NCBI RefSeq assembly: GCF_003858635.1
Contig: NZ_RQJO01000009.1
Span: 930,001 to 994,000 of the forward strand
Direction of reading: 5' to 3'
DNA: 64,000 bases
DNA from: Larkinella rosea
GTDB lineage: Bacteria > Bacteroidota > Bacteroidia > Cytophagales > Spirosomataceae
Under the pieces are notes generated by a model. It was not told where the DNA came from. It did no database searches and was given only the letters and a program-made list of their open reading frames with translations. Of this stretch, positions 1-64,000 are shown one piece after another. The first letter of the stretch is position 1; each line of letters begins with the position of its first letter. The translations under genes and the position numbers were made by a program.

Positions 1-605
1 AGCGTATCCAGCGTACCGTCTTCTTCCGCGCTGCGTTCAAAAAAAGAATACTCCGTTTGCACGGCGGTCAGCGGATGGATGGCGTGTGCTTTTTGAATGG
101 TGGCCGCCGACACTTCCGATAACCCAATATACCCCACTTTTCCTTCCTGCACCAATTCGGCCATCGCCCCGACGGTTTCTTCGATCGGCGTGTTAGGATC
201 CAGGCGGTGGAGGTAATACAGGTCGATGTAATCCGTGCCGAGGTTTTTCAGGGACCGTTCGACCGCTTTTCTGACGTAGTTCGGCTGGCCGTTGATGCGC
301 CAGGTCAGTTGCTCGTTGTCGTCGATTTCGTACCCAAACTTGGTGGCAATGACGTACTGATCGCGGTTTCCGCGGATGGCTTTGGCCACGAGTCGTTCGT
401 TGGCGAGGGGGCCGTATAAATCGGCCGTGTCCAGAAAATTACCGCCCAGTTCCAGCGAACGGTGAATGGTGGCAATCGACTCGGCTTCGTCGGATTTTCC
501 GTAAATATCCATCCCCGCAATCTGGGTCATGCCCATACATCCCAATCCAATCAGCGGAACCACCAGCCCCTGGCTGCCTAACTTTGTTTTTTGAATACTG
601 CTCAT
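1..605 (-). CDS. aldo/keto reductase (3' part cut by window edge)
   Basis: NAD(P)H-dependent oxidoreductase of the aldo/keto reductase (TIM-barrel) superfamily, probably cytoplasmic, reducing an aldehyde or ketone. Start is the ATG at 605; 201 residues are visible before the edge. The N-terminus has the strand LGSQGLVVPLIGLGCMGM. The catalytic tetrad is recognisable: Asp59 and Tyr64 in DTADLYG, Lys89 in ATKFG and His133 in YLHRLD. A GLSEVS strand near residue 161 is typical of the AKR11/AKR13-type bacterial subgroup with general stress or aldehyde-detoxification roles. It lies downstream of the AraC-type regulator at 839-1729 on the same strand, which may control it; the 230-base gap suggests its own promoter. 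The true substrate cannot be read from sequence. Confidence 0.93.
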   Translation of the reverse strand, partial: MSSIQKTKLGSQGLVVPLIGLGCMGMTQIAGMDIYGKSDEAESIATIHRSLELGGNFLDTADLYGPLANERLVAKAIRGNRDQYVIATKFGYEIDDNEQLTWRINGQPNYVRKAVERSLKNLGTDYIDLYYLHRLDPNTPIEETVGAMAELVQEGKVGYIGLSEVSAATIQKAHAIHPLTAVQTEYSFFERSAEEDGTLDT

Positions 606-838
606 GATTTGTCTGTGTTCGTCAAAAATAACAGCACAAAGGTCCGCAGGCAGGATGGCAAAAAAGGATGCAAATCTCTTGAAGTTGTATCCGAAACGGG
701 AAAAGAAATTATAAAAAAGGAATGAAAAATGTAAACGGGGCTGCCCTTTGGTGACGGATTTAGAATGTAAAATTCTAATAATCAGTTATTTTGATCACTT
801 TTTCAGGTATTGTTACTCATTTTTCATTTCTTCTTTTC

Positions 839-1729
839 TCAATTCAAGCTAACTTTTTTGTACTGGTTTGGACTGACGCCCACTTCTTTCTTGAACAACC
901 GGGAAAAATACGGTGGGTTTTCAAAACCGAGGGAGTAGGCAATTTCGGCCACGGTGGCGTCGGCGTTGTTCAGCAGGTGTTTGGCTTCCGAGATCAGAAA
1001 GAGATGGATATGTTCGATGGCGGTTTTACCGGTTTCCTGTTTCAGCAAATCGCTCGGGTAGCTGGTCGACAGATTCAGTTCGGCAGCCATAAACGTGACC
1101 GTAGGCAGCCCTTTTTTGGTCACCTGACCGCTTTCAAAATACTTCCTCAGGGTTTCCGAAAACCGGGAGATAATCCGGCCCGACAACTCCGTCCGATTCA
1201 TGAACTGGCGTTTGTAAAACCGCTGTGCATACCGAAGAATGGCTTCAATATGCCCCAGAATGATGTCTTTGCTGTATTCGTCCGGATTGTTGTTGTATTC
1301 CGTTTCAATATCCCGGTAAAGATCCCAGATAATCTGCTCCTCTTTCGGCGACAAATGCAGGGCTTCGTTGGCTTCGTATTCGAAATACTGATACTTTTTG
1401 ATTTCGGCATGAAGCGGATGGCCGTTCAGGTAATCCTCGTGGATGTAAATCGCAAAACCGTCCTCTTCCAGCTCCAGGTTCCGCATTTCAGCAATCTGGC
1501 GGGGCTTGATAAAATACATGGAACCGCTGTCGCTGTCGTAGTTCGTCCGGCCATACCGGATCATTCCGGATTTCATTTTTTTCAGGCCAATCATGTAGAA
1601 ATCCCCCGTGTATTCCCGGCTGTCGGTCGGGCAGGTCTGGTGGCACCGCAACAGGCTCAGCAACGGATGTTCCGGGGGCGGATAGCCGTTAAACTGGTGG
1701 AGTTCGCTCAACGTTTTAAAATGTGTCAT
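839..1729 (-). CDS. AraC-family transcriptional regulator
   Basis: 296-residue one-component regulator. The N-terminal ~180 residues are the ligand-sensing part, a cupin-like region with no close match I can name. The C-terminal ~100 residues hold two helix-turn-helix motifs. The first is around residues 213-233 and the second around 258-290, ending in the family signature ending FSRLFKKEVGVSPNQYK. Many Bacteroidota AraC regulators of this size control the adjacent oxidoreductase gene, so the aldo/keto reductase downstream and the SDR upstream, both on the same strand, are the natural candidate targets. This is inference; no operator was identified. Start ATG at 1729. Confidence 0.92.
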   Translation of the reverse strand: MTHFKTLSELHQFNGYPPPEHPLLSLLRCHQTCPTDSREYTGDFYMIGLKKMKSGMIRYGRTNYDSDSGSMYFIKPRQIAEMRNLELEEDGFAIYIHEDYLNGHPLHAEIKKYQYFEYEANEALHLSPKEEQIIWDLYRDIETEYNNNPDEYSKDIILGHIEAILRYAQRFYKRQFMNRTELSGRIISRFSETLRKYFESGQVTKKGLPTVTFMAAELNLSTSYPSDLLKQETGKTAIEHIHLFLISEAKHLLNNADATVAEIAYSLGFENPPYFSRLFKKEVGVSPNQYKKVSLN

Positions 1730-1747
1730 GTCTGGTTGGGATAAATA

Positions 1748-1782
1748 CCCAAACCGTCAGGCTCAGAGCATGACGGTTTGGG
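1748..1782 (-). terminator. hairpin terminator after SDR gene
   Basis: Perfect 12-bp stem (CCCAAACCGTCA at 1748-1759 with its complement at 1771-1782) and an 11-base loop, lying between the SDR stop and the AraC start. On the minus strand it is followed by a weak U-tract (TATTTAT). Probably ends the SDR transcript. Confidence 0.55.
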
Positions 1783-1800
1783 GAAATACGGTTTTCAAAC

Positions 1801-2619
1801 TTATTTGCCGTGCGCCAGTTCGGCCACTTCGCTCCATTCTTCCCAGGTTGCCAGTCGTTCGGCGTATACCTGACGGGTGAAGGGCAGCGTCACCTTGCCA
1901 AGGAACAAACGAAGGGGCGGATTTGTCGCATCGACCAGTTTTAAAATGGCGTCGACGGTAGCTTCCGGTTTTCCGATAGTGTCTTCTGTGAAACCGGCCC
2001 GAAAAGCAGCTTTCACATCATCATAGGCCGGTATCGGTTTTGAATGCGCAGCCGACGCCCCTCCCCAGTCGGTGGAAAAACCGTTCGGTTCGACCAGCGT
2101 TACGTGGATGCCAAAACCCTTCACTTCGGACGCCAGGGTTTCGCTCAAGCCTTCCACTGCAAATTTCGTTGCATTGTAAAGACCCAAAGTTGGCAGCGTA
2201 ACGACACCTAACAGACTGGATAACTGGATGATGTGACCGTAGCCCTGTTCGCGCTTGACCGGTAAGGCGGCCTGGGTTACCCACAACAGACCAAACACAT
2301 TGGCTTCGAACTGGTCGCGGGCTTCCTGTTCGGTGGCTTCTTCAATGGCTCCAAACAAACCGTAGCCCGCGTTATTGATCACGGTATCGATCTGTCCGAA
2401 ATAGGCTTTCGCTTGTTGAATGGCGTCGAAACTGGCCGCCCGGTCGGTTACATCCAACTGGATGGGCAGCAGGGCATCGCCGTATGTGGCTTTTAATTCA
2501 TCGAGTGAATGGATGTTTCGCGCGGTAGCCGCCACGTTGTCACCCCGTTGCAGAAACGCTTCCGCCCATAATTTCCCGAAACCGCGGGAGGCACCGGTAA
2601 TAAAAATTGTCTTTCCCAT
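1801..2619 (-). CDS. short-chain dehydrogenase/reductase (SDR)
   Basis: 272-residue classical SDR, cytoplasmic NAD(P)-dependent oxidoreductase. Cofactor motif TGASRGFG at residues 8-15, the structural NNAGYG at 82-87, catalytic Ser134/135, and YNATK giving Tyr148 and Lys152. Arg11 and Arg34 near the first strand favour NADP(H). Length is normal for the family. The overall pattern resembles the SDR5-like group often annotated as ketoreductase or oxidoreductase in Bacteroidota. It is followed by a hairpin terminator and then the AraC regulator on the same strand. The substrate is unknown. Confidence 0.94.
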   Translation of the reverse strand: MGKTIFITGASRGFGKLWAEAFLQRGDNVAATARNIHSLDELKATYGDALLPIQLDVTDRAASFDAIQQAKAYFGQIDTVINNAGYGLFGAIEEATEQEARDQFEANVFGLLWVTQAALPVKREQGYGHIIQLSSLLGVVTLPTLGLYNATKFAVEGLSETLASEVKGFGIHVTLVEPNGFSTDWGGASAAHSKPIPAYDDVKAAFRAGFTEDTIGKPEATVDAILKLVDATNPPLRLFLGKVTLPFTRQVYAERLATWEEWSEVAELAHGK

Positions 2620-2744
2620 TGTCGTATTTGTTAATTTGAATACGATGCAAAACTAGGCGGGCGGTTTTTGAATCATTTATACAAAAGCCGGGAAAGCTGA
2701 TACATTTCGCGGATCAGGGCAGGCGGTTTTTCGGAGAAAATGAA

Positions 2745-2779
2745 AACACCCCGGATCTGTTGGTCAGATCCGGGGTGTT
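2745..2779 (-). terminator. strong hairpin terminator
   Basis: Perfect 15-bp stem (AACACCCCGGATCTG at 2745-2759, complement at 2765-2779) with a 5-base loop. On the minus strand it is followed by TTTTCATTTTC. It lies downstream of the small secreted protein gene at 2866-3162 and fits a rho-independent terminator for it. Confidence 0.85.
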
Positions 2780-2865
2780 CGGGCGTCAATGGTGTGGATG
2801 TCGGCGGTTCAATCGGCGACTGAATGGGCTTCAACTACTTCATTTTTAACAGTGTGCGGATAAAT

Positions 2866-3162
2866 CTATGGGTTTTGCTGCTTGTAATTCCGATTCGCCG
2901 GCGAGGGAGTCGATGGAATGGTGATGGCGGGATCGCCCAAACCGCCCAGGCGCTGTAGTTCGCGGTAAGCGGCAATGTTCATCGGCTGCCGAACGCGCTT
3001 CCGGAATTCGATGGCCGATTCCGGTTCCCACTGGCGGGCCGCAATGGCTTTGTTGACGTGCTTGTAATTAGCCACCGAATAGGTCGACTCACTCAACAAT
3101 TTATTTTCTGCTTGTACGGCAAAAGCAAAAACAACGGCGATCAGACTCAAAAGCGTTTTCAT
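2866..3162 (-). CDS. small secreted protein of unknown function
   Basis: 98 residues from the ATG at 3162; an upstream in-frame ATG at 3174 would add MNHA. The N-terminus MKTLLSLIAVVFAFAVQA is a clear signal peptide with AQA-type cleavage, so the protein is exported. The mature part is basic and polar, contains RQPMNIAAYRELQRLGG, and ends in a Pro/Ser-rich tail, with no domain I recognise. It is not homologous to the two small proteins at 4121 and 4785, yet all three share almost the same ~80-bp upstream element (here at 3206-3282 on the minus strand). This suggests co-regulation, perhaps as part of an envelope response. A strong terminator follows at 2745-2779, so it is a monocistronic unit. 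Confidence 0.75.
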   Translation of the reverse strand: MKTLLSLIAVVFAFAVQAENKLLSESTYSVANYKHVNKAIAARQWEPESAIEFRKRVRQPMNIAAYRELQRLGGLGDPAITIPSTPSPANRNYKQQNP

Positions 3163-3205
3163 GGCGTGATTCATTTAGAGCGTTTGGATGGAGATTTGGT
3201 ATCCT

Positions 3206-3282
3206 GTTTGGATGAATCAAAGGTCGGCGGCCGCCCGGGGAAACGCTGTCTCAAATGAGTCGATCACTATCACTTTTGGGAA
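3206..3282 (-). promoter_or_regulatory. conserved upstream element, copy A
   Basis: Read on the minus strand it contains AAAAGTGATAGTGATCGACT, then CATTTGAGACAGCGTTT, then CCGACCTTTGATTCATC, ending about 44 bases before the ATG at 3162. Two further copies lie at 4019-4099 and 4684-4763. The middle stretch differs but the outer blocks are near-identical. The GACCTTTG block resembles the Bacteroidota -7 box (TAnnTTTG), and GTGATAGTGATC is a short direct repeat that could be an operator. Confidence 0.7.
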
Positions 3283-3437
3283 AACCGGGCAATTGTGCTC
3301 AGTGTCAGTAATCTACCGATAGTGGAGTGGTGATTGCGCGGTGAATTTTCGGGCAAAAATCGGTGAAGGTAGAAACCGGATGCAGCTGGCAACAAAAACC
3401 GCTGGAATTGATTTATCTCTGTAAACAAACCGAAATC

Positions 3438-3827
3438 ATGAACAGCAAAACCATCAACACCGTCGCGCGCATTGCACTGGGCGCCAATTTGATCGTTGCC
3501 GGAATCAGCCATTTGACGTTTGCCCGAAAAGCGTTTCAGGCCCAGGTTCCGGATTGGGTGCCCTTACAGAAGGATGATACAGTCGTGTATTCCGGCCTTG
3601 CCGAAATCGCACTCGGTAGCACGCTGGTCCTGACCGATCAGGAGCACCAGCAGGCCGTAGGGAAAGTGGCGGCTTCCTTTTTTACGGCGGTTTTTCCGGG
3701 AAACATTTCGCAATACGTCAATCAGCGGAGCGCCTTTGGGTTGGATACAAACCGGAAACGCTTCCTCCGTTTGTTTTTCCAGCCGGTGCTGGTCTACTGG
3801 GCCCTGAAGAGTACGGACAATTTGTAA
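3438..3827 (+). CDS. DoxX-like small integral membrane protein
   Basis: 129 residues from the ATG at 3438 (the open frame extends upstream, but MNSKTINTVAR begins the recognisable protein). About four hydrophobic helices: ARIALGANLIVAGISHL near 9-25, a stretch around residues 52-68 (GLAEIALGSTLVL), AASFFTAVFPGNISQYV near 80-96, and RLFFQPVLVYWAL near the C-terminus. This organisation, with FARKAFQAQVPDWVP after helix one and a PGNISQYVNQR loop, fits the DoxX/COG4270 family of small inner-membrane proteins. In some bacteria members act with oxidoreductases in redox or sulphur stress; function here is unproven. It stands alone between divergent elements. Confidence 0.8.
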   Translation: MNSKTINTVARIALGANLIVAGISHLTFARKAFQAQVPDWVPLQKDDTVVYSGLAEIALGSTLVLTDQEHQQAVGKVAASFFTAVFPGNISQYVNQRSAFGLDTNRKRFLRLFFQPVLVYWALKSTDNL

Positions 3828-3947
3828 TTCGACCATCGCTAAAACCGCCCGAATAGGGCACGCGGGAAGCATTGAATGGTTGCCTCCGCCAATCTTACCG
3901 GCCCCAGTTCTTCCGCATTGACCTTTCCGGTCTGTAAAAGCTGATTC

Positions 3948-3976
3948 GCGGGAAAGCTCGTCAAAAGCTTTCCCGC
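3948..3976. other. inverted repeat downstream of DoxX-like gene
   Basis: 11-bp perfect stem (GCGGGAAAGCT at 3948-3958, complement at 3966-3976) with a 7-base loop, 120 bases after the DoxX-like stop. Neither side has a good U-tract, so it may be an attenuated terminator, an mRNA-stabilising hairpin or an operator for the nearby gene. Confidence 0.4.
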
Positions 3977-4018
3977 CGGGACCCTCCCAAACCGGATGGG
4001 TTCTCCACCTGCCGCTTT

Positions 4019-4099
4019 CCCCAAAAGTGATAGTGATCGACTCATTTGTGACAGCGTTTTCCCGCTTTGAAGCCGACCTTTGATTCATTCAAACGGACC
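4019..4099 (+). promoter_or_regulatory. conserved upstream element, copy B
   Basis: Begins CCAAAAGTGATAGTGATCGA, passes through CTCATTTGTGACAGCGTTTT, and ends with CCGACCTTTGATTCATTCAA ahead of the ATG at 4121. Differs from copy C (4684-4763) at about five positions over ~80 bases. Likely the promoter and operator of the following gene. Confidence 0.75.
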
Positions 4100-4120
4100 A
4101 AAAACAAAACTTCAAATACC

Positions 4121-4522
4121 ATGAAAACGCTCATCAAATCACTGTTCGTCGCTTTTTCGCTGACACTGGTTAGCTTCTCGGTTTCCAATGCCGACATCAA
4201 CAAACCCATCGGGCGACCCAAAAATGCGGTTAGCTTTCAACGGGGAATCTATACAACGTCCGAAGGAAAACTTCAAATTGCGCTCAACAAACAAACCGGT
4301 GGCACCGTCGAGATTCGGTTGGTCGATCAGAAAGGCAATGAAGTTTTCTTCCAGAAAATTGGCAAACGCCAGCAGGCGGTTCGGCTGCGCCTGGACGTTA
4401 GCTCGCTGACCGATGGTGACTATCAGGTGGTGATTACCAACGGTTTCGACACCACCGTCAACGACCTGACCATCGCGACCAAGCCCGCCCATGTGGCAAA
4501 CCGGATGATTGCGGTGAACTAA
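4121..4522 (+). CDS. small secreted beta-sandwich protein, paralogue 1
   Basis: 133 residues from the ATG at 4121. The signal peptide is MKTLIKSLFVAFSLTL through SNA. The mature ~108 residues alternate short beta strands: LQIALNKQTGGTVEIRLVDQ, then EVFFQKIGK, then LRLDVSSLTDGDYQVVITNG, then VNDLTI. This order (VxxRLVDxxG, a middle strand, LDxxxLxDGxYxVxITNG, a final strand) is the same as in type IX secretion C-terminal sorting domains and DUF3244-like Ig folds, but here it is the whole protein with no cargo. Close paralogues follow at 4785 and 40274. The function is unknown; an envelope structural or binding role is possible. All three end in a small tail such as NRMIAVN. Confidence 0.82.
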   Translation: MKTLIKSLFVAFSLTLVSFSVSNADINKPIGRPKNAVSFQRGIYTTSEGKLQIALNKQTGGTVEIRLVDQKGNEVFFQKIGKRQQAVRLRLDVSSLTDGDYQVVITNGFDTTVNDLTIATKPAHVANRMIAVN

Positions 4523-4577
4523 AAGTCGACCGGTTTTCTAAAAAATAATACCAGGGTTAAGTTGTACGAAGAAAACG

Positions 4578-4604
4578 CCGGCCCAGATTTGGGCCGGTTT
4601 TTTT
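4578..4604 (+). terminator. rho-independent terminator
   Basis: 7-bp GC stem CCGGCCC / GGGCCGG with a 6-base loop, followed by seven T. It lies 55 bases after the stop of the secreted protein and is matched by an equivalent terminator after the second copy of the unit. Confidence 0.9.
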
Positions 4605-4683
4605 GTGTGAAAAGCCGCCGGTTTTGAAAAGCTTTTGATCACATAAAGCAACTGGGTGAAGAAAACCGCCAGATTGCCCAATT

Positions 4684-4763
4684 CCCAAAAGTGCTAGTGA
4701 TCGACTCATTTGTGACAGTGTTTTCCTGCTTCGGAGCCGACCTTTGATTCATTCAAACGGACC
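4684..4763 (+). promoter_or_regulatory. conserved upstream element, copy C
   Basis: Near-identical to copy B: CCAAAAGTGCTAGTGATCGA, CTCATTTGTGACAGTGTTTT and CCGACCTTTGATTCATTCAA, ending about 20 bases before the ATG at 4785. Conservation outside coding sequence argues that the element itself is functional or very recently duplicated. Confidence 0.75.
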
Positions 4764-4784
4764 AAAAAACAAACTCCTTATACC

Positions 4785-5180
4785 ATGAAAACGCTCGCAA
4801 AATTCCTGTTCGTCGCCTTTGCGCTGACCTTTGTTACGGTCTCTGTGTCCTTCGCCAATAACCGGCCCATCAAGGCGCTGAAAGCCGTTGGGTACGAAAC
4901 CAGCTTATACACCGATACCAAAGGAAATCTTCGGATTGCGGTCGATAAACAAACCGGTGGAGCCGTTGAGGTTAAGCTGGTTAACAGTGCCGGGAAAGAA
5001 TTTTTCGTTCAGCGGATTGGTAAGAACCAACGGAAAGCCCGGCTGCGGCTGGATGTGAGTGAACTACCCGACGGAGCGTATCAGGTAGCTTTCACGAACG
5101 GCGCTACTGACTTCGTTAATAATTTGACAATCAATACAAAACAGCCCGAATTCAAGAGCCGGATGATTGCTTTGAACTGA
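4785..5180 (+). CDS. small secreted beta-sandwich protein, paralogue 2
   Basis: 131 residues, tandem paralogue of the gene at 4121. Signal peptide MKTLAKFLFVAFALTFVTVS with cleavage near SFA-NN. The mature part has LRIAVDKQTGGAVEVKLVNS, EFFVQRIGK, LRLDVSELPDGAYQVAFTNG and VNNLTINTK, aligning strand by strand with paralogue 1, and ends KSRMIALN. The same promoter-like element and the same kind of terminator flank it, so the full transcription unit was duplicated. Divergence is strong in the protein yet weak in the upstream element, which suggests selection on the regulatory sequence. The function is unknown. Confidence 0.82.
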   Translation: MKTLAKFLFVAFALTFVTVSVSFANNRPIKALKAVGYETSLYTDTKGNLRIAVDKQTGGAVEVKLVNSAGKEFFVQRIGKNQRKARLRLDVSELPDGAYQVAFTNGATDFVNNLTINTKQPEFKSRMIALN

Positions 5181-5218
5181 AGTAAAAAAAGACTTTTAGG
5201 TTAGGTTAAGTTGTACGT

Positions 5219-5251
5219 TAAAGACCGGTCCAGTTTTGGGCTGGTCTTTTT
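5219..5251 (+). terminator. rho-independent terminator
   Basis: AAAGACCGGTC pairs with GGCTGGTCTTT (two G-T wobbles), followed by a T-run, 38 bases after the stop of paralogue 2. It could also act on the convergent M28 peptidase transcript, since the A-run on the other arm makes it partly bidirectional. Confidence 0.85.
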
Positions 5252-5282
5252 GCGTAAAAGCGGGGCAATCGGTGATTTGCGG

Positions 5283-6215
5283 CTACTTCACCGGCGTAAA
5301 CGTCATTTTGGGCAGTTTCATCGCGTTGTCGATCAGCTTGATTTCCAGTCGCAAAATCTCTTCTTCCGCTTTGGCGTCGATTTTTTCCGGATCGTCCGTC
5401 GGCTTGTGGTAATCGGGGTGGCCGCCGGTGTGGAAGAACAGTACCGGAATCTGTTTGGCGTAAAAAGCCGCATTGTCGGAACCGCCGTTGCCCGCCCGGT
5501 CGGTAAAGAATTTAACTTTGGCGGTGACGTCCTTGAAAACCGCCGGCCAGGCGTCGGCGGTTCCGTAGCCCCCGATGCCGATGCCGCGTTCGGGATTGTA
5601 GCGACCAATCATGTCCATGCAAATCATGAAATTCAGCCGGTCGAGCGGCAGGGTGGGGTGGTTCAGAAAATGACGGGAGCCCTGCAACCCGAGTTCTTCC
5701 GCGCCGAACGCCATAAATAGCAAATTGTAGGGTTCTTTCGTGCCATTTTTGGCGTAATACTGCGCCAGTTCGAGCAAACCGGCGACGCCCGAGGCATTGT
5801 CGTCGGCACCGTTGTGAATCTGTCCCTGCGGGTTGGAAGCCAGCGAACTGCCCTGATTGCCCATGCCCAGGTGGTCATAATGCGCCCCGACCACAATGGT
5901 TTGTTCGGCACCGTTGTCCAGAAAACCGATCACGTTGGCGGCTTTCCGCAGGCTATCGGGCACCACCACGCGCCGGACTTTGGCCGTGAAGGGTTGGTAA
6001 AAACCGTCTTCGCCCAGCGGTTTCAAGCCGTATTTCCGGAAATGTCGGGCGATGTAGGCTGCGGCTTTGGCATTTTCGCGACTGCCGGTTCCCCGGCCTT
6101 TCATTTTGTCGGAAGCCAGTTTAGCGACGTGGTTCTGAATGCGGTCGGCAGATGGTTCCTGGGCAAAAACCGGAAACGATACTACTAATAGAAAGGTAAA
6201 AATTCGATGGTTCAT
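5283..6215 (-). CDS. secreted M28-family metallopeptidase
   Basis: 310 residues from the ATG at 6215. The open frame continues upstream, but MNHRIFTFLLVVSFPVFAQ is a signal peptide with cleavage after FAQ. It is a di-zinc aminopeptidase of family M28: His112 in GAHYDH, the bridging Asp138 in NGADDNASG, the catalytic/ligand Glu173-174 in AFGAEE, Asp201 in ICMDMIGR and His270 in DYHKPTDDPEK. All five ligand positions are present, so it should be active. It likely trims peptides in the periplasm or outside the cell. It is divergent from the metallo-beta-lactamase gene, with a 28-bp perfect palindrome between them. Confidence 0.93.
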   Translation of the reverse strand: MNHRIFTFLLVVSFPVFAQEPSADRIQNHVAKLASDKMKGRGTGSRENAKAAAYIARHFRKYGLKPLGEDGFYQPFTAKVRRVVVPDSLRKAANVIGFLDNGAEQTIVVGAHYDHLGMGNQGSSLASNPQGQIHNGADDNASGVAGLLELAQYYAKNGTKEPYNLLFMAFGAEELGLQGSRHFLNHPTLPLDRLNFMICMDMIGRYNPERGIGIGGYGTADAWPAVFKDVTAKVKFFTDRAGNGGSDNAAFYAKQIPVLFFHTGGHPDYHKPTDDPEKIDAKAEEEILRLEIKLIDNAMKLPKMTFTPVK

Positions 6216-6249
6216 GCTCGCAAAATTATATAATTTTGGCGTTTCTGAT

Positions 6250-6277
6250 GTAGAGACGCGATTAATCGCGTCTCTAC
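6250..6277. repeat. 28-bp perfect palindrome between divergent genes
   Basis: GTAGAGACGCGATT at 6250-6263 is followed immediately by its exact reverse complement. It sits between the M28 start and the beta-lactamase start. It may be a dispersed palindromic repeat of the type found in Bacteroidota and cyanobacterial genomes, or a dyad operator serving both genes. Confidence 0.75.
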
Positions 6278-6303
6278 TGGTTTCATCAACAATCCTTATA
6301 ACC

Positions 6304-7053
6304 ATGCGCCTTCTGACGGTATTCTTTCTGCTGATTGTACACCCCGGTTTTGCCCCGGCTCAACCAAAAACCAAGCCCAAACTACAAGTAACGCCCCTCA
6401 ACGACCGCGTTTTGGTCCACACCACGTACGGGATGTACCAAAACGAAAGCGTTCCGTCCAATGGTCTGATTATCAAAACCGACGACGGTGTTGTGCTGGT
6501 GGATACGGGATGGGATACCGACGGCAATACTGACAACAGCCGGCAATTGCTCCAGTGGGTCGCCGACAATCTGCGCCAGCCCGTCCGCCTTTGCATTGTC
6601 ACGCACGCCCACGGCGACCGGGTAGGAGGTATCCGGGAAATGCGAAAAGCCGGTATCCGCGTGGTCAGTACTCCGCTGACGGCCCAAAACTCCGTTAAAC
6701 AGGGGTACGATGCGCCCGACGCCATCCTCCCGAATGATACCACGTTCACAATCGGGAAAGAACCGATTCGGTGTTATTTTCCGGGCGAAGGGCACACGAG
6801 CGACAACATCGTGGTCTGGCTGCCCAACCAGCGGATTCTGCACGGTGGCTGCTTCGTCAAAAGTGTGGCGGCTTTCGGTATGGGTTTCCTCGGCGACGCC
6901 AATCTGAAGGAATGGGGAAACTCCATTCGGCGGGTGAAAAAGCAGTTCGGCACGGCGAAAACCGTGGTGCCGGGCCATGAAGAATGGAGCGATACCCGGT
7001 CGCTGGACCACACGTTGCGGTTGCTGGAAAAACACGCGGCTGCCCAGAAATAA
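6304..7053 (+). CDS. subclass B1 metallo-beta-lactamase
   Basis: 249 residues from the ATG at 6304, with signal peptide MRLLTVFFLLIVHPGFAPAQ, so it is periplasmic. The full B1 di-zinc site is present: His101, His103 and Asp105 in THAHGDRVGG, His164 in GEGHTSDNIVVWLP, Cys183 in GGCFVKS and His225 in VPGHEEW. Cys at the second-site position separates B1 from B3 enzymes and from glyoxalase-like members of the fold. The length (~230 mature residues) and spacing of motifs match known B1 enzymes such as those of Bacillus, Bacteroides and Flavobacteria. It should hydrolyse the beta-lactam ring, including carbapenems, although activity and range are not proven by sequence. No mobile element is near, so it looks like a resident chromosomal gene. 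Confidence 0.94.
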   Translation: MRLLTVFFLLIVHPGFAPAQPKTKPKLQVTPLNDRVLVHTTYGMYQNESVPSNGLIIKTDDGVVLVDTGWDTDGNTDNSRQLLQWVADNLRQPVRLCIVTHAHGDRVGGIREMRKAGIRVVSTPLTAQNSVKQGYDAPDAILPNDTTFTIGKEPIRCYFPGEGHTSDNIVVWLPNQRILHGGCFVKSVAAFGMGFLGDANLKEWGNSIRRVKKQFGTAKTVVPGHEEWSDTRSLDHTLRLLEKHAAAQK

Positions 7054-7076
7054 GCACCGGTTTTTGAACGACCCGG

Positions 7077-7496: not shown

Positions 7497-7571
7497 CGTG
7501 TTGTGGTTTATGCGGCAAAACTACCACCACACTCCGGTTGCGTACTAGGGCTTTTCGTTCAAAAACTATCG

Positions 7572-8489: not shown

Positions 8490-8645
8490 TTCGGAAGTTT
8501 TCGTACCCGGTTTCCAGTTTTTCCCGCTTTGGCGTGCCCCGTTTACCGTAATGCTAATTCTTAAATTGTTTCAGGGTGGTGAGGTGGCTTTTTTTCGGTT
8601 TCATAGTCGTTCTCGAGATAGGATGTAAGTTTAGCCGAGAGGTTT

Positions 8646-9023: not shown

Positions 9024-9210
9024 GCTTTGAGAACAATCAATTTTAATTCCGGATTCCAAAGCCGCTCAAAAGCGGTTTCACTTGTTTCGTGAACGCTCCA
9101 ATACTATCAATCTTGCTCAAAAAAAACGAAAAATTTTGTACAACCAAGCCGACTTTTTTTAATAATTCCTCCGCGCAACAGAAATAAGGTAAATCTATTC
9201 AGTTAATAGC

Positions 9211-9247: not shown

Positions 9248-9272
9248 TCACTAAAAACCGTATCCAAAAATT

Positions 9273-12701: not shown

Positions 12702-12742
12702 CGTGTTATGGGAAAATTGTCAATTCATTTGATGGAAAACAA

Positions 12743-52520: not shown

Positions 52521-52523
52521 GAC

Positions 52524-57156: not shown

Positions 57157-57248
57157 GAATGCTGGCCGTAAACCGCTCTCTTCGGAAATTCGTTGCTTTT
57201 TTTAATACTTAGAGTTGAAGTAACCCCTGGTCCAGTTTGCATAGGTAG

Positions 57249-57290
57249 CCGCCAATCCCACAGGTGTTTTTGGGGGATTGGCGGTTTTTT
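57249..57290 (+). terminator. rho-independent terminator of efflux operon
   Basis: 11-bp stem CCGCCAATCCC / GGGATTGGCGG with a 14-base loop and following T-run (TTTTTTA). It also lies at the 3' end of the convergent heparinase-like gene. Confidence 0.9.
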
Positions 57291-59166
57291 ATTTTACCCA
57301 CTTCTCCAGCGGCTGTACTTTCGGCCGGGCGGTTTTCTCCGCTTTTTCAGGAATCAGCAAAACCGTCAGGGCGGTTTTTGAATTGGCGGGAGCCTTTACT
57401 TCAAAACCCACCCGAATCGTGCCGGGATTGGCGGCATCGTAATCGTGGGGTGGTTCGGTCGACCAGGTTTGCAGCGTGACTTTGGCCGGTTCCTGCACTT
57501 CCAGAATCAGCTTTTTACCGTCTTTGGTGAGTTCTGCTTTGTTTTTTCCAAGCAGTTTGACGTCGGCAGGGGTTAGCATGGTCCAGCGGACCGTGGTTTC
57601 GGCGGGGGCGGTTTCCAACTCATCCCGAACCACCACGTACGCTTTGTTAACCAGCGCAACGCCCCGGACAGCTTTCAACACCGATTGGTTATAAATGGGC
57701 GTCAGATCCGCAATGGCGTTCATGAATACCGGCGTTTTCGAGGATGAGGTCATCCGGGCGTCTCCTTCAACTTGCTGCATTTTGTTGTTGATCGTCAGGG
57801 TATTATGAACAAAATTGTTGTACCGGAAAACCTGCCAGCGTTGCGAATCCTGTTTTTTGTTCCATAAATCGACGCCTTTTGATTCCAGCGACTCGTAGTC
57901 CTGCATCCCAAAATCCATCGCCCAGCGAACCCCATCTGCGTCCATCACAAACGAACCGGCGTCCATGTGGGCGTGATTCATCGACGGACTACCGCCCTTG
58001 AATCCCAGGAAAATAGCCGCCGGATCGGTCCAGGACGAGCGCATCAGCGCCACCGGCGTTTTACCGGCTCCGGTCCACATCAATTCTTTCGGTTCTTTCA
58101 CGGACGAAACGCCCACGCCGGCGCTCCAGAGCATTACCGACGGCAGCAGCCGGTCTTTCACAAACCGGTTGGCGCCGTCGTTCATCAAATGACTTCGCTC
58201 CACCCACAGCAACGACGGATCTTTCAGTTTGTTGGCAAACCAGAACATGGACGACTCCAGACCACCCGCCAGACCCGAATCCGAATAATTGAAGGCGTTG
58301 CCCGTAGGACCGGTCATGTTTTCCAGGTAAGCAGCGGTTTTCAGAAAACCGGGTTGGGCCGATAAGCCATAATCACTGCCGAAAGCTTTTTCCAGCGCAC
58401 TGATCAGCATAACGTTGAAGCTGGTGCCGTAGCCCCAGTAACTGTATCCTTCGGGATACGCGCCGTCGGGATTGTAATCGTTCATCGGCAAAGCCACCGA
58501 ACTGATGGAGCGGTTGATGATGCGTTTGGCCAGTTCCGGTTGATCTTCAAAAATGGCGAGCGCCCCGTAGGCCATTCCGGCATTGCAAACCTGATTCCAG
58601 TTGTTGGTCACTTTCAGCCAGCTGTTGTATTTTTCATTCAGGGAAGGTTCGATTCCTTTTTTCAGGATGGCGGTTTTGATCTGATTCCGGGCCGATTCGG
58701 ACAACCCGTGATACAGCCAGTCGTAGCCAATGGCCACCGCCATCGTCATTTCACCCACGTCCAGAAAATGCGACGGGTTCCAGTCACTGAACGCCGAAAT
58801 GGCCAGCAACTCTTTCTCGGCGCGCCGGAGGTAATTTTCCTGCTGGGTCATTCGCCAGGCATAGGCCAGAAAGAAAATCCGGCGCAAGCCCTCCCGCGAT
58901 TTTCCCAGCAACCGCCGTCCAATCTGAATCCGTTCGATGGGCGGGACGTCCATCAGCGCGTCGCACTCGGCCAGGATAATCCCGTGCATTTTCTCCCAGG
59001 TTTTGTCCAACCCAACCGTGCGCTTGATCGCATCCTCTTCTCCCTTCAGCAGCAGAATGCGCGGGTGGTTGGGCAGTGAGACCTGGGTGCCAATGTGGTC
59101 GGTCTGCGCCCGGGCCGAGGTGAACACCGGCAACAGAGCAACCAGGAACTTCAGGACGGTTTTCAT
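57289..59166 (-). CDS. secreted heparinase II/III-like polysaccharide lyase
   Basis: 625 residues from the ATG at 59166, signal peptide MKTVLKFLVALLPVFTSARA. N-terminal (alpha/alpha) toroid: LPNHPRILLLKGEEDAIKRT, AVAIGYDWLYHGLSESARNQ, NNWNQVCNAGMAYGALAIFE and AYPEGYSYWGYGTSFNVMLI, where Tyr residues form the lyase site. The C-terminal beta-sandwich has the heparinase II/III signature SPSMNHAHMDAGSFVMDADG with a metal/catalytic His and a final YNNFVHNTLTINNKMQQVEG. It probably cleaves uronate-containing polysaccharides by beta-elimination. Divergent from a Gfo/Idh-Tat pair 200 bases away. Confidence 0.88.
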   Translation of the reverse strand: MKTVLKFLVALLPVFTSARAQTDHIGTQVSLPNHPRILLLKGEEDAIKRTVGLDKTWEKMHGIILAECDALMDVPPIERIQIGRRLLGKSREGLRRIFFLAYAWRMTQQENYLRRAEKELLAISAFSDWNPSHFLDVGEMTMAVAIGYDWLYHGLSESARNQIKTAILKKGIEPSLNEKYNSWLKVTNNWNQVCNAGMAYGALAIFEDQPELAKRIINRSISSVALPMNDYNPDGAYPEGYSYWGYGTSFNVMLISALEKAFGSDYGLSAQPGFLKTAAYLENMTGPTGNAFNYSDSGLAGGLESSMFWFANKLKDPSLLWVERSHLMNDGANRFVKDRLLPSVMLWSAGVGVSSVKEPKELMWTGAGKTPVALMRSSWTDPAAIFLGFKGGSPSMNHAHMDAGSFVMDADGVRWAMDFGMQDYESLESKGVDLWNKKQDSQRWQVFRYNNFVHNTLTINNKMQQVEGDARMTSSSKTPVFMNAIADLTPIYNQSVLKAVRGVALVNKAYVVVRDELETAPAETTVRWTMLTPADVKLLGKNKAELTKDGKKLILEVQEPAKVTLQTWSTEPPHDYDAANPGTIRVGFEVKAPANSKTALTVLLIPEKAEKTARPKVQPLEKWVK

Positions 59167-59364
59167 AATAAGTAGAATTAGGAATAGGTTTGTTTTTAGT
59201 AGCATAAACCGGTTTTTAGGCGGAGTCTACCCGTTAAAATGGCCCGGTTTTCAAAAGATATTTTTACGAAGTTGGTAGTTTTTTAAAGTTTACTACCTTT
59301 ATGTAAATTGTACATAATAACAAATTTATAACCCCGGCGTCTACCGTCCGAAACCTTCAATTAA

Positions 59365-60735
59365 ATGGATCTTTTTAACATGAACCGCCGTCGTTTTCTG
59401 CAGGGCGCTACGGCATCACTCGCGCTTTCTACGCTGGGTGCCTACGGAATGGATGGTCTCCATCAGGGAAAAACCTGGCGCGTTGCCCTGATCGGAACCG
59501 GCTGGTATGGTAAAAGTGACTTGTTCCGACTGATTCAGGTAGCTCCCGTTGAAGTCATTGCCCTCTGCGATGTTGACAAAAATCAACTGGATGCAGCGGC
59601 CAAACTCGTCAGTCAGCGTCAGAAATCCGGCAAAACGCCCAAACTTTATGGTGATTACCGGAAACTGCTCGCCGAAAACCAACTGGATATTGTCCTGATC
59701 GGAACGCCGGACCACTGGCATGCCTTGCAGGCAATTGATGCCGTAAAAGCCGGTGCAAACGTATACGTACAAAAACCGATCAGCGTCGATGTTATGGAAG
59801 GGGAAGCGATGGTAGCGGCTGCCCGGAAATATAAAAAAGTAGTGCAGGTAGGCACCCAGCGCAAAAGCACCCCTCACCTGATAGAAGCCAAAAAGAACAT
59901 TGTTGATGCGGGATTATTAGGTAAAATATCGCACGTTGATATGTGCTGCCACATTCACATGCGGGCGAATGGCAATCCGCCAACGCAGGCTGTTCCGGAT
60001 TTTCTGGACTACGAAATGTGGACCGGCCCGGCTCCGCTGCGCCCTTACGACGGATTGCCCCACATTCGCTGGTGGCGGACTTTCAAAGAGTACGGCAACG
60101 GCATCATGGGCGACATGTGTATTCACATGTTCGACACGGTTCGCTGGATGCTGAAACTCGGCTGGCCAACCCGCATTAGCTCGGAAGGCGGTATTTACGT
60201 GCAGAAAGAAGGAAAATCCAATATTCCCGATACCCAGTCGGCGGTTTTTGAATATCCCGAACTGAACTGCGTCTGGTCGCAGCGGAGCTGGGGAACGCCG
60301 ACTAATCCGGATTATCCTTGGTCGTTTACATTGTACGGCGAAAAAGGCACCTTGTGGGCCAGCACCATGCAGTACGACTTTATTCCGCAGGATAAAAACG
60401 GAAAGAAAATTCACAAAGACGTCATCTACGAAAAAGAGAAATACCCCGAAGATCTGACCGAAGAGCGCATCGAGTTGAACGCAGCTCCGGCCACCCGTCT
60501 GCACATGCTTGACTTCCTGGCGGCCATTGAAAAAAACAGTCGTCCGGTAGCCGATATCGAAGAAGGGCACATTTCAACCGCAAGCTGTATTCTGGCCAAT
60601 ATTTCCATGCAAGTTGGGCGGCCGGTTGTGTATGACCCCGTGAAACGGGAAGTCGTCGGCGACCGCGAAGCCACCGGCCTGCTGATGCGCCCGTACCGCA
60701 AACCGTGGACACACCCTGATCCGAAGAAAGTATAG
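59365..60735 (+). CDS. Tat-exported Gfo/Idh/MocA-family oxidoreductase
   Basis: 456 residues; starts MDLFNMNRRRFLQGATASLA, a twin-arginine signal (a start at the internal ATG 59380 is equally possible). Rossmann motif VALIGTGWYGKSDL near 40-53; family Lys137 in VYVQKPISVDVMEGEAM; C-terminal half with GNGIMGDMCIHMFDTVRWML carrying the conserved Asp and His. It oxidises or isomerises a sugar-like hydroxyl with bound NAD(P). The next gene starts directly after its stop (60735/60736), so they are one operon. A DUF1080 gene (62524) sits at the end of this cluster; Gfo/Idh plus DUF1080 is the pairing proposed for glycoside 3-oxidation pathways. Confidence 0.93.
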   Translation: MDLFNMNRRRFLQGATASLALSTLGAYGMDGLHQGKTWRVALIGTGWYGKSDLFRLIQVAPVEVIALCDVDKNQLDAAAKLVSQRQKSGKTPKLYGDYRKLLAENQLDIVLIGTPDHWHALQAIDAVKAGANVYVQKPISVDVMEGEAMVAAARKYKKVVQVGTQRKSTPHLIEAKKNIVDAGLLGKISHVDMCCHIHMRANGNPPTQAVPDFLDYEMWTGPAPLRPYDGLPHIRWWRTFKEYGNGIMGDMCIHMFDTVRWMLKLGWPTRISSEGGIYVQKEGKSNIPDTQSAVFEYPELNCVWSQRSWGTPTNPDYPWSFTLYGEKGTLWASTMQYDFIPQDKNGKKIHKDVIYEKEKYPEDLTEERIELNAAPATRLHMLDFLAAIEKNSRPVADIEEGHISTASCILANISMQVGRPVVYDPVKREVVGDREATGLLMRPYRKPWTHPDPKKV

Positions 60736-62451
60736 ATGGATCGGAGAACATTTGTACGCATTGGAACGGCTTCGCTGTGCAGTCTGCCCGTTCTGACCAC
60801 TGCCAGTTGGGCCCGTTCTTTCGCCATTCCCGCCGAAACAAAACCCGGCTGGCTGCTCGAAGTAATTAAGGCGAATGATCAGCAGATCGATCAGATCCGG
60901 GCGCACCGGGTCAAAGAGTCCGGTAATCCGGCATTTGGGGGCTTCAAGGATGGCGAAGATATTCCAAATCCGCAATCCACCGCCGATTTTGTCCGGCGTT
61001 GCTGTTGCGCTATTTCCTGCCCGGAATCCACGTTTTACCGCTCGAAAGAACTCCTGACCGAAACCGGTCAGGCGGTTCAGTACCTGCTCAAAGTTCAGCA
61101 CGCCGACGGTACCATCGATTTGCCCGCTACGAATTTCCATTCAACGCCCGATACCGGTTTCATTGTCAAGCGCTTAACGACCGCTTATTCGTTGTTGAAC
61201 CGTTCCGGCGCACCGGGGATGGAAACGGTTTTGCTGCCGTTGAAAACGTTTTTGCAACGGGCAGGGGAGGCCCTGACCGTCGGTGGTATTCACACGCCCA
61301 ACCACCGCTGGGTGGTGTCGGCGGCTTTGACCAAACTGAATGCGCTCTGGCCCGACCCCCGTTACGTCAAACGCATCGAGCAATGGCTGGGCGAACACAT
61401 CGACCTGGACGAGGACGGGCAGTTTAACGAACGCAGCACGTTGATTTATTCGCCCCTGACCGACCGCCTGCTGATCACGATTGCGAAAGGAATGAACAAG
61501 CCGGAACTGTTCGACTATGTTCGGAAAAATCTGGCGATGACGCTCTATTACATTCACCCGAACGGGGAAGTGGTTTCGGATGCTTCAGGAAGGCAGGACA
61601 AAGCGCTGGTCGGGACACTGGAAGGCTATTATTATCCGGCGCGGTTTATGGCGTTGCGGGATAAAAACGGGGAACTGGCCGCGCTGGCCCGCCAAATCGA
61701 GAAAACCGTGCTGCTGAAAGGTGTCTATTTTCTCGACTATTTTCTGGATGACCCGGCTTTCTGGAACGAATTGCCGCCTGACAAACCGCTGCCCACGAAT
61801 TACGTGAAACCCTTCCCACATTCGGGACTGGTCCGGATTCGGCGGGGGAACTGGGATAGCACGATTTTAAAAACCAACCCGGTTTTTATGACGTTTTCGA
61901 AAGGCGAAGCGGTTTTGCAGGGCCTGCGGTTTTCGGCTTCCTTTTTCGGAAAAGGCCAGTTCCAAACCGAAAACATTGAGAAGCAGGGCGACAGCTGGGT
62001 ATTGACACAATCGTTAAAAGGCCCTTATTACCAGCCGGTTGCCAAAAATGAAATCGACCCGGACGGCAATTGGGAAAAAATGCCCCACGCCAAACGGAAG
62101 CAATCCGACATACAGGCATACGAAGCGAAAGTGACAGTTCGGGAAACCAGCAATGGGATGGAGGCTCAAATCCAGATTACCGGCACCGAGAATATCCCGG
62201 TTTCCGTCGAGCTGATCTTCCGGGCGGGCGGTACGCTGGCCGGCGTGACGAAGCATCCGACCCGCGCCAATGCCCATTTGTTGAGTGGCGAATCCGGTTC
62301 ATATACAGTTGGAAAGGACACGATTACGTTTGGTCCCGGAAAAGCCCTGCACAAAAATGTGGTGTTGCGGGGCGCTTTGCCACCGATGGATGCTCCGACG
62401 GTTTACCTGACCGGTTTTACACCCTTTCAGCATACCATCAAACTTTCGTAG
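60736..62451 (+). CDS. Tat-exported protein of unknown function
   Basis: 571 residues. MDRRTFVRIGTASLCSLPVL carries a twin-arginine signal, so the protein is folded before export and may hold a cofactor or metal. The N-terminal ~330 residues look mostly alpha-helical (AVQYLLKVQHADGTIDLPAT, AYSLLNRSGAPGMETVLLPL, KRIEQWLGEHIDLDEDGQFN), like an (alpha/alpha) toroid of lyases or glycosidases. The C-terminal ~240 residues are beta-rich (RIRRGNWDSTILKTNPVFMT, VTVRETSNGMEAQIQITGTE). That is the architecture of heparinase or alginate-lyase families, but no known family signature is visible. Co-transcribed with the Gfo/Idh gene, it is a good candidate for a new carbohydrate-active enzyme. Confidence 0.8.
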   Translation: MDRRTFVRIGTASLCSLPVLTTASWARSFAIPAETKPGWLLEVIKANDQQIDQIRAHRVKESGNPAFGGFKDGEDIPNPQSTADFVRRCCCAISCPESTFYRSKELLTETGQAVQYLLKVQHADGTIDLPATNFHSTPDTGFIVKRLTTAYSLLNRSGAPGMETVLLPLKTFLQRAGEALTVGGIHTPNHRWVVSAALTKLNALWPDPRYVKRIEQWLGEHIDLDEDGQFNERSTLIYSPLTDRLLITIAKGMNKPELFDYVRKNLAMTLYYIHPNGEVVSDASGRQDKALVGTLEGYYYPARFMALRDKNGELAALARQIEKTVLLKGVYFLDYFLDDPAFWNELPPDKPLPTNYVKPFPHSGLVRIRRGNWDSTILKTNPVFMTFSKGEAVLQGLRFSASFFGKGQFQTENIEKQGDSWVLTQSLKGPYYQPVAKNEIDPDGNWEKMPHAKRKQSDIQAYEAKVTVRETSNGMEAQIQITGTENIPVSVELIFRAGGTLAGVTKHPTRANAHLLSGESGSYTVGKDTITFGPGKALHKNVVLRGALPPMDAPTVYLTGFTPFQHTIKLS

Positions 62452-62459
62452 CTGACCCT

Positions 62460-62519
62460 ATTCCACAAAAAAGCCGGAAAACCATCACTTACTACGGTTT
62501 TCCGGCTTTTTTGTGGAAT
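62460..62519. terminator. bidirectional terminator, 24-bp stem
   Basis: Arms 62460-62483 (ATTCCACAAAAAAGCCGGAA onward) and 62496-62519 are perfect complements, with a 12-base loop, and A-/T-runs inside the stem. It lies between convergent genes and can end both transcripts. Confidence 0.93.
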
Positions 62520-62523
62520 CATT

Positions 62524-63162
62524 TTAGCGCAATTCTTCCAGCGTCAGGTCTTTGTAGTGAACCTCCGCCTTGCCCCCTCCGTGAATTTGCAGTCCAATGA
62601 GCCCCTCCTGCGGAATGGATTCGTCGGCTTCCGTGTAATCGACGGTTTGTTTTCCATTCAGATACAGCCGGATGCGCCGGTTTTCGGCCCGAATTTCGTA
62701 ATCGTTCCAGTCGTTCGGTTTCAGTATTTTTTTGATCAACGCTGAGTCCGGGGCAATCAGGGTTTTGTTCCGGCGCGACTCGTCGTAGAGACTCGCCCAG
62801 TAGCCCTTGCCCAGATCAGCCTGGTAGCCCGTCATTTCGTAAGCGGGTTTGGTCAGCCGTTTGCTCCGAAACTGTACACCGGTATTGATAAAACCTTCCG
62901 TGCCCAGCAGTTTGAATTTCACGCGCATGATGAAGTTGGCGTAAGGACGGGTCGTGCAGAGGAAGTCGTTGTGCGGCACTGTTTCGGTCAACGAACCACC
63001 CACCAGTGCGCCATCCTGAATTCGCCAGGTTTTGACCGTGTCGCCTTCCCAGCCCCGGAACGTTTTGCCATCAAACATCCGAACCGGTTTTTGGGGCGAA
63101 TGGGCTATAAAACCTGCGAGAAGGGATCCGCCAACAAATGTGCAGAAAAGTGAAAATTTCAT
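62524..63162 (-). CDS. DUF1080 / 3-keto-disaccharide hydrolase-family protein
   Basis: 212 residues from the ATG at 63162; the frame starts earlier. Signal peptide MKFSLFCTFVGGSLLAGFIA. The DUF1080 lectin-like fold: VRMFDGKTFRGWEGDTVKTW, RIQDGALVGGSLTETVPHND, FLCTTRPYANFIMRVKFKLL, GVQFRSKRLTKPAYEMTGYQ, then DWNDYEIRAENRRIRLYLNG and IGLQIHGGGKAEVHYKDLTL. The Pfam family is now named 3-keto-disaccharide hydrolase; characterised members cleave 3-keto-glycosides. Located at the end of the Gfo/Idh cluster, convergent with the unknown Tat gene, so the two may act in the same 3-oxidation pathway. Confidence 0.93.
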   Translation of the reverse strand: MKFSLFCTFVGGSLLAGFIAHSPQKPVRMFDGKTFRGWEGDTVKTWRIQDGALVGGSLTETVPHNDFLCTTRPYANFIMRVKFKLLGTEGFINTGVQFRSKRLTKPAYEMTGYQADLGKGYWASLYDESRRNKTLIAPDSALIKKILKPNDWNDYEIRAENRRIRLYLNGKQTVDYTEADESIPQEGLIGLQIHGGGKAEVHYKDLTLEELR

Positions 63163-63931
63163 GGAATCAGGAAATAAGAGGTTCAGGAAAATGCGACCAC
63201 GAGGTGTAAACAAAACCGGTCGCATTTCAAAGGTAAGTAAATCCTTGTTACCTGCGTTCCAGAAAAGATTTGAAAATGTCGATCCTCATTGCTATAAAAT
63301 CGACCTGTTGCTCTTCTGCTTCGTATTTGAAGGGACTAATTGACGTTTTCAGTCTATAATCAATGGGTGATTACCAGACATATTAAAAAATAAATTTTTT
63401 AATATTATATATACTTACTTTTAGAGAACTATCCGAAATTATTCATATGTTGGCATAGATATTGTGCGTATATAGGAATATGTTGTTCCCATGTATGCCA
63501 AATTGGTGACAACGTAAAATATATTCCTAAACTTTCTCTGCCTAATGAAAACGTTATCCTACCCGGATAATTATAGATATTTGCGCTTATTTCTGACCAG
63601 AATATCGCTTATTTATAGTTTTTCCTCTCTTCCTTTCTTGCCTGAGATTTTTTTTAACAACGCTTATTACACACTTTTCATGGCCGCCTTGCACGCTTAT
63701 GCCATCCCGATGCGGGTGTGATAAGTGGCTACTAATTCTTCCATATTTTTTTTAAGGCTTGTTAATTATCAGACAAAAAACAACCTCTTTGTGAGCCTAT
63801 TTCGGCTTGCCTGGAATTTCTTTGGGTTGGTTTTTTGGTTGGCTATCCGTTCAGTCTAACGAATAAAGCATGCGGTTTTAGGCAAACCGGTCAATTCGTG
63901 CTTTCTGGTTTATTCATTCAAACTCACACGT
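63163..63931. other. AT-rich 769-base gene-free region
   Basis: A small 10-bp inverted repeat (AAATGCGACC / GGTCGCATTT) lies at 63189-63227, just upstream of the DUF1080 gene. The rest, especially 63380-63560, is strongly AT-rich, with no ORF or RNA gene I can support. It may contain a long promoter region for the last gene, or decayed sequence. Confidence 0.5.
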
Positions 63932-64000
63932 ATGAATTCATATCGATACCTACTAATTTTCCTTTGCCTCCTGGTAACCGGAACGGTAATGGCCCAATTC
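63932..64000 (+). CDS. partial gene: start of a secreted protein
   Basis: ATG at 63932; 23 residues before the edge: MNSYRYLLIFLCLLVTGTVM then AQF. A signal peptide with VMA-QF cleavage, as in Bacteroidota secreted proteins, many of them SusC-like receptors. No more can be said. Confidence 0.65.
   Translation, partial: MNSYRYLLIFLCLLVTGTVMAQF

Follow-up and report, generated by a model that had tools for sequence, protein, structure and literature searches.

What makes a genome fill up with copies of a single short word, the highly iterated palindrome HIP1 being the classic case, is an unsettled question that is posed again by a stretch of 64,000 nucleotides of Larkinella rosea (contig NZ_RQJO01000009.1, positions 930,001 to 994,000; hereafter the window, C12:930001-994000 of the genome G000, which has 8,174,678 bases) in which the heptamer AAAACCG recurs throughout. 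Its excess is a strand-symmetric, DNA-level signal that goes beyond codon preference. All copy counts given here sum AAAACCG and CGGTTTT, the latter being AAAACCG on the minus strand, and the reversed word GCCAAAA serves as control. Genes were called with our own script for open reading frames (ORFs) and no standard gene finder, giving a coding fraction of 0.77 in G000, so that the gaps between genes may contain missed genes. The sites of the window are distributed as follows:

1..64000, both strands: 179 AAAACCG sites in the whole window, 89 on the plus and 90 on the minus strand (word count)
1..5000, both strands: 19 AAAACCG sites, 9 plus and 10 minus (word count)
48000..51000, both strands: 8 AAAACCG sites, 3 plus and 5 minus (word count)
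842..63225: 43 called coding sequences (CDS; 51,216 nt) containing 131 of the 179 sites, the other 48 lying outside (own ORF script)

The sequence-only reading that drew attention to the word had counted 9 copies of AAAACCG and 10 of CGGTTTT in the first 5 kb, which our recount reproduces exactly, and about nine between 48000 and 51000, where the excess is present and the exact number is eight. It had also reported near-equal counts on the two strands, which holds for the window and for the whole of G000, where 9,738 and 9,806 copies add up to 19,544 (2,390 per million nt) as against 2,984 (1,501 and 1,483) for GCCAAAA; the excess therefore persists in the rest of the genome. Within the window the density is 3.75/kb outside called CDS versus 2.56/kb inside.

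Plain base composition can be set aside as the cause, the excess remaining when expectations are taken from Markov models of orders 1, 2, 3 and 4, each of which gives AAAACCG the top z-score of all heptamers in the window. The 179 observed copies compare with expectations of 7.5 at order 0, 27.8 at order 1, 51.4 at order 2, 58.1 at order 3 and 112.8 at order 4, while the order-5 model (167 expected) comes near the observed count because the core AAACCG is itself an enriched word. When synonymous codons were shuffled within each gene, 603 kb of G000 CDS gave 380 copies (standard deviation, sd, 11) as against 1,451 observed (x3.8), and the 131 copies in the CDS of the window exceeded the mean of 34.9 and the maximum of 49 reached in 200 such shuffles. 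All six phase and strand classes are raised in the G000 CDS, by x2.3 to x7.9, with the control word at 215 versus 192 expected in the same shuffle. The intergenic gaps of G000 (30-700 nt, 45.7 kb in all) show the highest density, 3.43/kb, with 157 copies against 19.9 under an order-1 model (x7.9). The codon-shuffled null thus fails to reproduce the frequency, and codon preference, which had already been thought unlikely to suffice alone, is ruled out by the shuffles together with the enrichment in all phases and in the gaps. Codon-pair preference is disfavoured by the enrichment of the gaps. No excess was found in the comparator G198 from another genus (25 copies versus 31.5 in the synonymous shuffle).

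The anatomy of the word is simple. At 4,198 AAACCG sites the base at -1 is A in 52% and T in 9%, that at +1 is G in 39% and A in 13%, and that at +2 is T in 34% and G in 16%; beyond these positions there is little information, with a weak dyad extension only, and AAACCG, unlike the control word, shows no periodicity of three bases in its surroundings. Over the outgroup, the first-position neighbours GAAACCG (x4.2), CAAACCG (x2.8) and TAAACCG (x2.05) are raised, as is AAATCCG (x2.7), with no rise for words changed in the CCG part (x0.9-1.5). Sites lie along G000 in near-Poisson fashion (variance 2.65 and mean 2.37 per kb, a ratio of 1.12), and no convincing helical periodicity of their spacing was seen. 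Pairs of AAAACCG followed by CGGTTTT are in clear excess at distance 5 only, where 10 were found versus about 1.3 expected; these are overlapping copies forming AAAACCGGTTTT, which occurs 10 times in 923 kb. The word itself is asymmetric and thus no palindrome, and neither inverted pairs beyond those 10 nor flanking A/T tracts were found at its sites. Only one of 2,179 distinct 27-mers centred on the word recurs, and since nearly all are unique AAAACCG is no dispersed repeat; an origin in repetitive extragenic palindromes (REP/REPIN) or insertion sequence (IS) ends was rejected on this ground and on the little information in the flanks. Terminator hairpins are likewise unsupported as a source by the flanks, the pairing distances and the 27-mers. 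The placement of copies in genes, in all frames and orientations, and in intergenic DNA noted in the sequence-only reading is therefore borne out, whereas hairpins as a source of copies are not.

To see how far the excess extends, we turned to nine genomes of the genus to which the window belongs and 213 other genomes of the family, in 35 genera, along with an order-wide sample of 391 genomes made up of two of the genus, 89 family members already counted and 300 from other families. Copies of AAAACCG in the genus are:

G000, 19,544; G008, 18,454; G005, 13,987; G002, 13,980; G007, 13,365
G004, 11,634; G001, 7,692; G003, 6,407; G006, 5,351

These correspond to 0.78-2.39 copies per kb and to ratios of motif to control of 3.3 to 6.5. 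Among the 213 other family genomes the densest, G079, has 4,012 copies in 6.4 Mb (0.63/kb, ratio 1.7) and G175 (0.52/kb) leads in ratio with 3.1; among the 300 from other families the densest is G487, with 3,289 in 4.4 Mb (0.75/kb, ratio 2.0). In density G487 nearly equals G006, the poorest member of the genus (0.78/kb, ratio 4.7), and in ratio G175 nearly equals G003 (ratio 3.3), but none of the genomes screened outside the genus matches its members in both. The excess is thus found in all nine genomes of the genus and, as far as the searched genomes go, in that genus alone.

Within the genus, copy number tracks the branching order of an rpoB tree in which G006 is basal, followed by (G001, G003) and then by (G004, (G002, G005, G007)) and (G000, G008). 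Ratios over the order-1 expectation are not strictly stepwise along this tree, being 6.0 and 5.7 in G000 and G008, 4.3-4.6 in the G002 group, 2.9-3.2 in G001 and G003 and 4.2 in G006. The related word AATACCG stands at 3.2-3.8 over order 1 in G000 and G008, at 4.5-6.1 in the rest of the genus and at 2.25-2.5 in three of four outgroups. Within the genus the favoured word appears to have changed, and in the early branches it appears broader or different. At loci of G001 and G003, AAAGCCG, AATACCG and AAACCGT were seen to be raised alongside AAAACCG.

Individual sites are also retained between species. Pairwise retention was taken from homologous stretches among the sampled loci, alignments shorter than 300 bp, below 70% identity or overlapping being dropped. 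Sites of G000 are intact in G008 in 127 of 167 cases (48% for all heptamers), those of G003 in G000 in 27 of 37 (28%) and those of G006 in G000 in 10 of 17 (20%); the control word is retained in 14 of 33 cases from G000 to G008 and in 14 of 22 in the reverse direction. For the pair G002-G004 the unpolarised figure is 149 of 236 (39% for all heptamers), with GCCAAAA at 30 of 55. In G003, 27 of 110 G000 sites are present, no more than background, which fits with most of them having been gained later. When heptamers with 20 or more sites are ranked by retention, AAAACCG comes 3rd of 688 (G002 to G000), 2nd of 658 (G004 to G000), 4th of 536 (G002 to G008), 7th of 824 (G008 to G000) and 18th of 794 (G000 to G008). 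In most species pairs, then, AAAACCG sites survive better than nearly all other heptamers.

Gains and losses were polarised by parsimony around rpoB, where 77,786 bases in 160 kb of G000 align to G008 and 73,779 to G002; columns in which G008 was missing or under four species were represented, ambiguous states and root edges were left out. In the G000/G008 clade AAAACCG was lost 32 times where 84.3 losses were expected (0.38) and gained 28 times where 15.5 gains were expected (1.81), with 104 permuted words pooled giving 1.00 for loss and 1.01 for gain, and GCCAAAA losses at 11 versus 13.5. Over all branches the loss ratio is 0.57, the 7th lowest of 98 words. Losses by single change in the G000/G008 clade are low at all seven positions (0.08-0.49), for transitions (0.31) and transversions (0.26) alike; this count was made without permuted words as control, and its overall value in the other clade is low as well (0.46). 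With S = ln(1.81/0.38) = 1.56 as the sole fixation parameter, one expects a gain of 1.98, a loss of 0.42 and an equilibrium enrichment of x4.8, near the x3.8 to x6 observed. Loss is thus reduced in the clade of the window, and this is the firmer half of the gain and loss evidence, in which numbers are small; raised gain in the same clade is suggested, not firm.

What these data jointly favour, tentatively and at somewhat less than even confidence, is that AAAACCG, whose core AAACCG is preferentially preceded by A, is a highly iterated word, specific to its lineage, that a weak bias keeps in place. Such a bias would maintain about 2.4 copies per kb by acting on any copy, on either strand, within and between genes. 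It would be a bias of fixation, with S = 2Ns of about 1.5, arising from selection or biased conversion, and would not be a mutation bias alone. Behind it may stand a factor that reads the sequence, most plausibly a recombination or repair machine, and a candidate of this kind (an AddAB-type nuclease-helicase or mismatch repair) would treat DNA bearing the word more favourably. That the factor is such a machine is a guess, and one we would expect to be wrong more often than right.

A number of observations weigh against a fixation bias of this kind. The substitution data come from one region of about 65 kb around rpoB and comprise few events. The control word also shows a raised gain in the G000/G008 clade (15 versus 8.4, x1.79). 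In the clade of G002, G004, G005 and G007 there is no excess of gains (23 versus 27.2; permuted words 1.02), and losses, at 82 versus 115.3, are nearer to the control (permuted words 0.87); the two clades differ with P = 0.002 for losses and 0.008 for gains, although relaxation in the second can be at most partial because unpolarised pairs there retain the word above background. With all branches taken together, gains stand at a ratio of 1.19, only 32nd of 105 words; single changes alone give 24 gains versus 20.2 expected, and strict polarisation leaves 8 gains and 11 losses on the branch to G000 and 5 gains and 8 losses on that to G008. By position the gains of AAACCG are uneven (16 versus 3.3 at A2, x0.7-1.8 at the others) and are raised for transversions (32 versus 12.9) and not for transitions (28 versus 26.9), which tells against pure fixation bias because such a bias should raise both alike. 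Retention between G003 and G006 is at background (2 of 8 and 2 of 11; 20% for all heptamers), the comparator G157 from another genus is mildly enriched in AAAACCG over its synonymous shuffle (13 versus 7.5, sd 2.2), and one of the protein-level readings of the word, [SPTA]V[FL], has similar values in G000 (1.37) and in G173 (1.39), a genome lacking the word, with 1.15 in the outgroup. Taken together, the gain of the control word, the gain rank of AAAACCG and the G003-G006 pairs weaken the gain and retention evidence.

Several of these points bear on a context-dependent bias of mutation or repair, in which a polymerase or repair enzyme of the genus would make AAAACCG from near-misses and seldom mutate it, so that no function would be needed; we consider this fairly unlikely as a full account. 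The greater density in the gaps between genes, the near-random spacing, the concentration of gains at one position and in transversions, and the poverty in the word (0.6-0.7/kb) of two low-GC 20-kb samples, one of which carries a phage tape measure gene, are all as it would predict, but low loss at seven positions and for both types of change would hardly follow from one mutational route. The imprint on proteins, which also speaks against it, is mixed. Dipeptides able to carry the word stand higher in G000 than in pooled outgroup proteins (NR 1.39 and 1.05, KT 1.18 and 1.01, KP 1.34 and 1.26, GF 1.17 and 0.97, RF 1.26 and 1.07), the reversed ones differing little (PK 0.87 and 0.82, TK 0.78 and 0.85, RN 1.06 and 1.01, FG 1.10 and 1.06, FR 1.00 and 0.98), while the sixth reading, [SPTA]V[FL], is non-discriminating because its value in G173 is no lower than in G000. 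A small imprint of AAAACCG on protein sequences is thus suggested and not firm. On balance the cause is a bias favouring the word, most readily taken as a weak one of fixation to which mutation probably contributes.

The two poor samples, L001 and L012, have GC contents of 0.456 and 0.455, and over the G000 samples the density of the word tracks local GC (r = 0.70). That recently acquired DNA would be without AAAACCG is only a suggestion, since both samples are low in GC and L012 has no visible phage gene. L001 (G000:C10:1-20000) holds a phage tape measure protein, a Pycsar effector domain, a type VI secretion system (T6SS) immunity domain and a non-specific endonuclease; L012 holds a Schlafen/AlbA domain, Ig/PKD domains and a TonB plug.

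Recombination (Chi-like), uptake, segregation and methylation had been proposed as functions for the word in the sequence-only reading. Chi words are typically short, over-represented and specific to a lineage, and Chi is usually polar. AAAACCG shares with the Chi sites of RecBCD and AddAB that it is short, asymmetric, lineage-specific and over-represented, and a protein of 985-1000 aa with a PDDEXK_1 domain, putatively AddB-like by that one domain and by size alone, occurs in all nine genomes of the genus. A Chi-like signal read by an AddAB-type enzyme and kept by direct selection would be a special case of the weak fixation bias, with which its probability overlaps, and is in our judgement unlikely. 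Proteins of this type are equally present in relatives without the word (957-1102 aa, 8 of 8 searched). AAAACCG also differs from Chi in having no polarity: with replication strand assigned by GC skew in genome samples, the two strands carry 211 and 193 sites (52% and 48%) in samples of G003, a closed genome, and 1,011 and 1,172 (46% and 54%) in those of G000, so that no replichore polarity was found in either. The same counts leave a polar segregation signal unsupported.

HIP1 and its alternates are the nearest phenomenon. Cyanobacterial HIPs reach about 500-2,500 copies per million nt depending on the lineage and are replaced by another word in some lineages (PMC4390886), and they are palindromic and associated with methyltransferases (Elhai 2015, PMC4390886). 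AAAACCG is alike in lying in the same frequency range, with its 2,390 per million, in being genome-wide and in being replaced by another word in relatives, and differs in being non-palindromic, in lacking a common methyltransferase among four families tested and in belonging to a different phylum. It is therefore HIP-like in behaviour and not a member of that group. The replacing word is AGGTACC (reverse complement GGTACCT), whose counts among 59 genomes are 10,566 in G155 (control 736), 8,622 in G173 (771), 3,815 in G218 (833) and 2,358 in G058 (715), all four from other genera of the family, and 796 in G157 (214), with 344-509 in members of the AAAACCG genus. In G173 it exceeds the synonymous-codon shuffle (63 versus 8.7), and in samples of this outgroup GGTACC stands at x8.4 over order 1. 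Both words being in excess, a single family thus has two or more different iterated words. This second word, like alternate HIPs, and the shared frequency range would suit a HIP-type motif in which, as in Elhai's model for the cyanobacterial HIPs, an orphan DNA methyltransferase marks AAAACCG and a repair system reading the mark creates and keeps it. The scarcity of the palindromic AAAACCGGTTTT argues against such a system, as do the methyltransferases themselves: PF00145 and PF02086 are above cut-off in four of the nine genomes each, PF01555 in six and PF07669 in eight, many PF07669 matches being weak or partial and PF02086 being absent from G000. None of the four families is common to all nine, type I and novel enzymes lying outside this search; a conserved methylation signal is thus unsupported for the families searched, and a HIP-type origin is improbable.

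Known uptake-sequence systems use the type IV pilus, and the DNA uptake sequences (DUS) are 10-12-mers read by that system. An uptake sequence, by which competence machinery preferring DNA that bears the word would spread it through recombination, would fit the clade-following variants, the want of strand bias and the retention of sites, all consistent with a drive by biased uptake. However, PF00437 (type IV pilus and type II secretion, T2S, ATPase) gave only partial matches and no full one in the nine genomes of the genus, full matches being found in two other genomes of the order, and the lack of flanking A/T tracts and of inverted pairs beyond AAAACCGGTTTT also tells against it; we regard pilus-type uptake as unsupported and an uptake sequence as very improbable. 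As models of spread, DUS dialects and molecular drive nonetheless come nearest. The DUS dialects of Neisseriaceae have thousands of copies and variants that track phylogeny (Frye 2013, PMC3630211), as AAAACCG does, which differs in being a 7-mer and in the partial pilus-ATPase matches. In the molecular drive of short over-represented oligonucleotides a word accumulates and near-miss words are partly raised (Bakkali 2007, PMC1939737), as are GAAACCG, CAAACCG, TAAACCG and AAATCCG here, but the driver there is DNA uptake, whereas no full match to the pilus ATPase was found in the genus.

It is conceivable, if doubtful, that the family carries a fast-changing force that reads sequence and is neither methylation- nor pilus-based, with AAAACCG on one genus and AGGTACC on several as dialects of an unrecognised recombination, repair or self-marking system, and AAAACCG now best kept in the clade of the window. 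Density varies by a factor of up to three among the nine related species, and related genera are without the word or have another, a contrast that lets one seek a gene changing along with the word and separate mutation from fixation bias. Were AddAB to read it, Chi dialects would exist in Bacteroidota; were the reader new, the word would belong to a new genome-wide marking system. Searches of PubMed Central (PMC) on motifs and k-mers in Larkinella, Spirosoma and Dyadobacter, and others on uptake sequences, Chi and HIP1, returned no title or abstract start about AAAACCG, and as a whole word it occurred there only in two papers, unrelated by title.

Two minor observations concern other features. 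Locus L202 (G131:C1:1-20000) carries, at about 9671-13859, palindromic repeats of the type GTAGAGACAGGGCATGCCCTGTCTCTAC, singly and as a 33-bp tandem array, which we take to resemble REP/REPIN elements. The window itself contains the following pair, perhaps a tandem duplication:

21057-23776: two adjacent neutral/alkaline ceramidase-like genes (PF04734)

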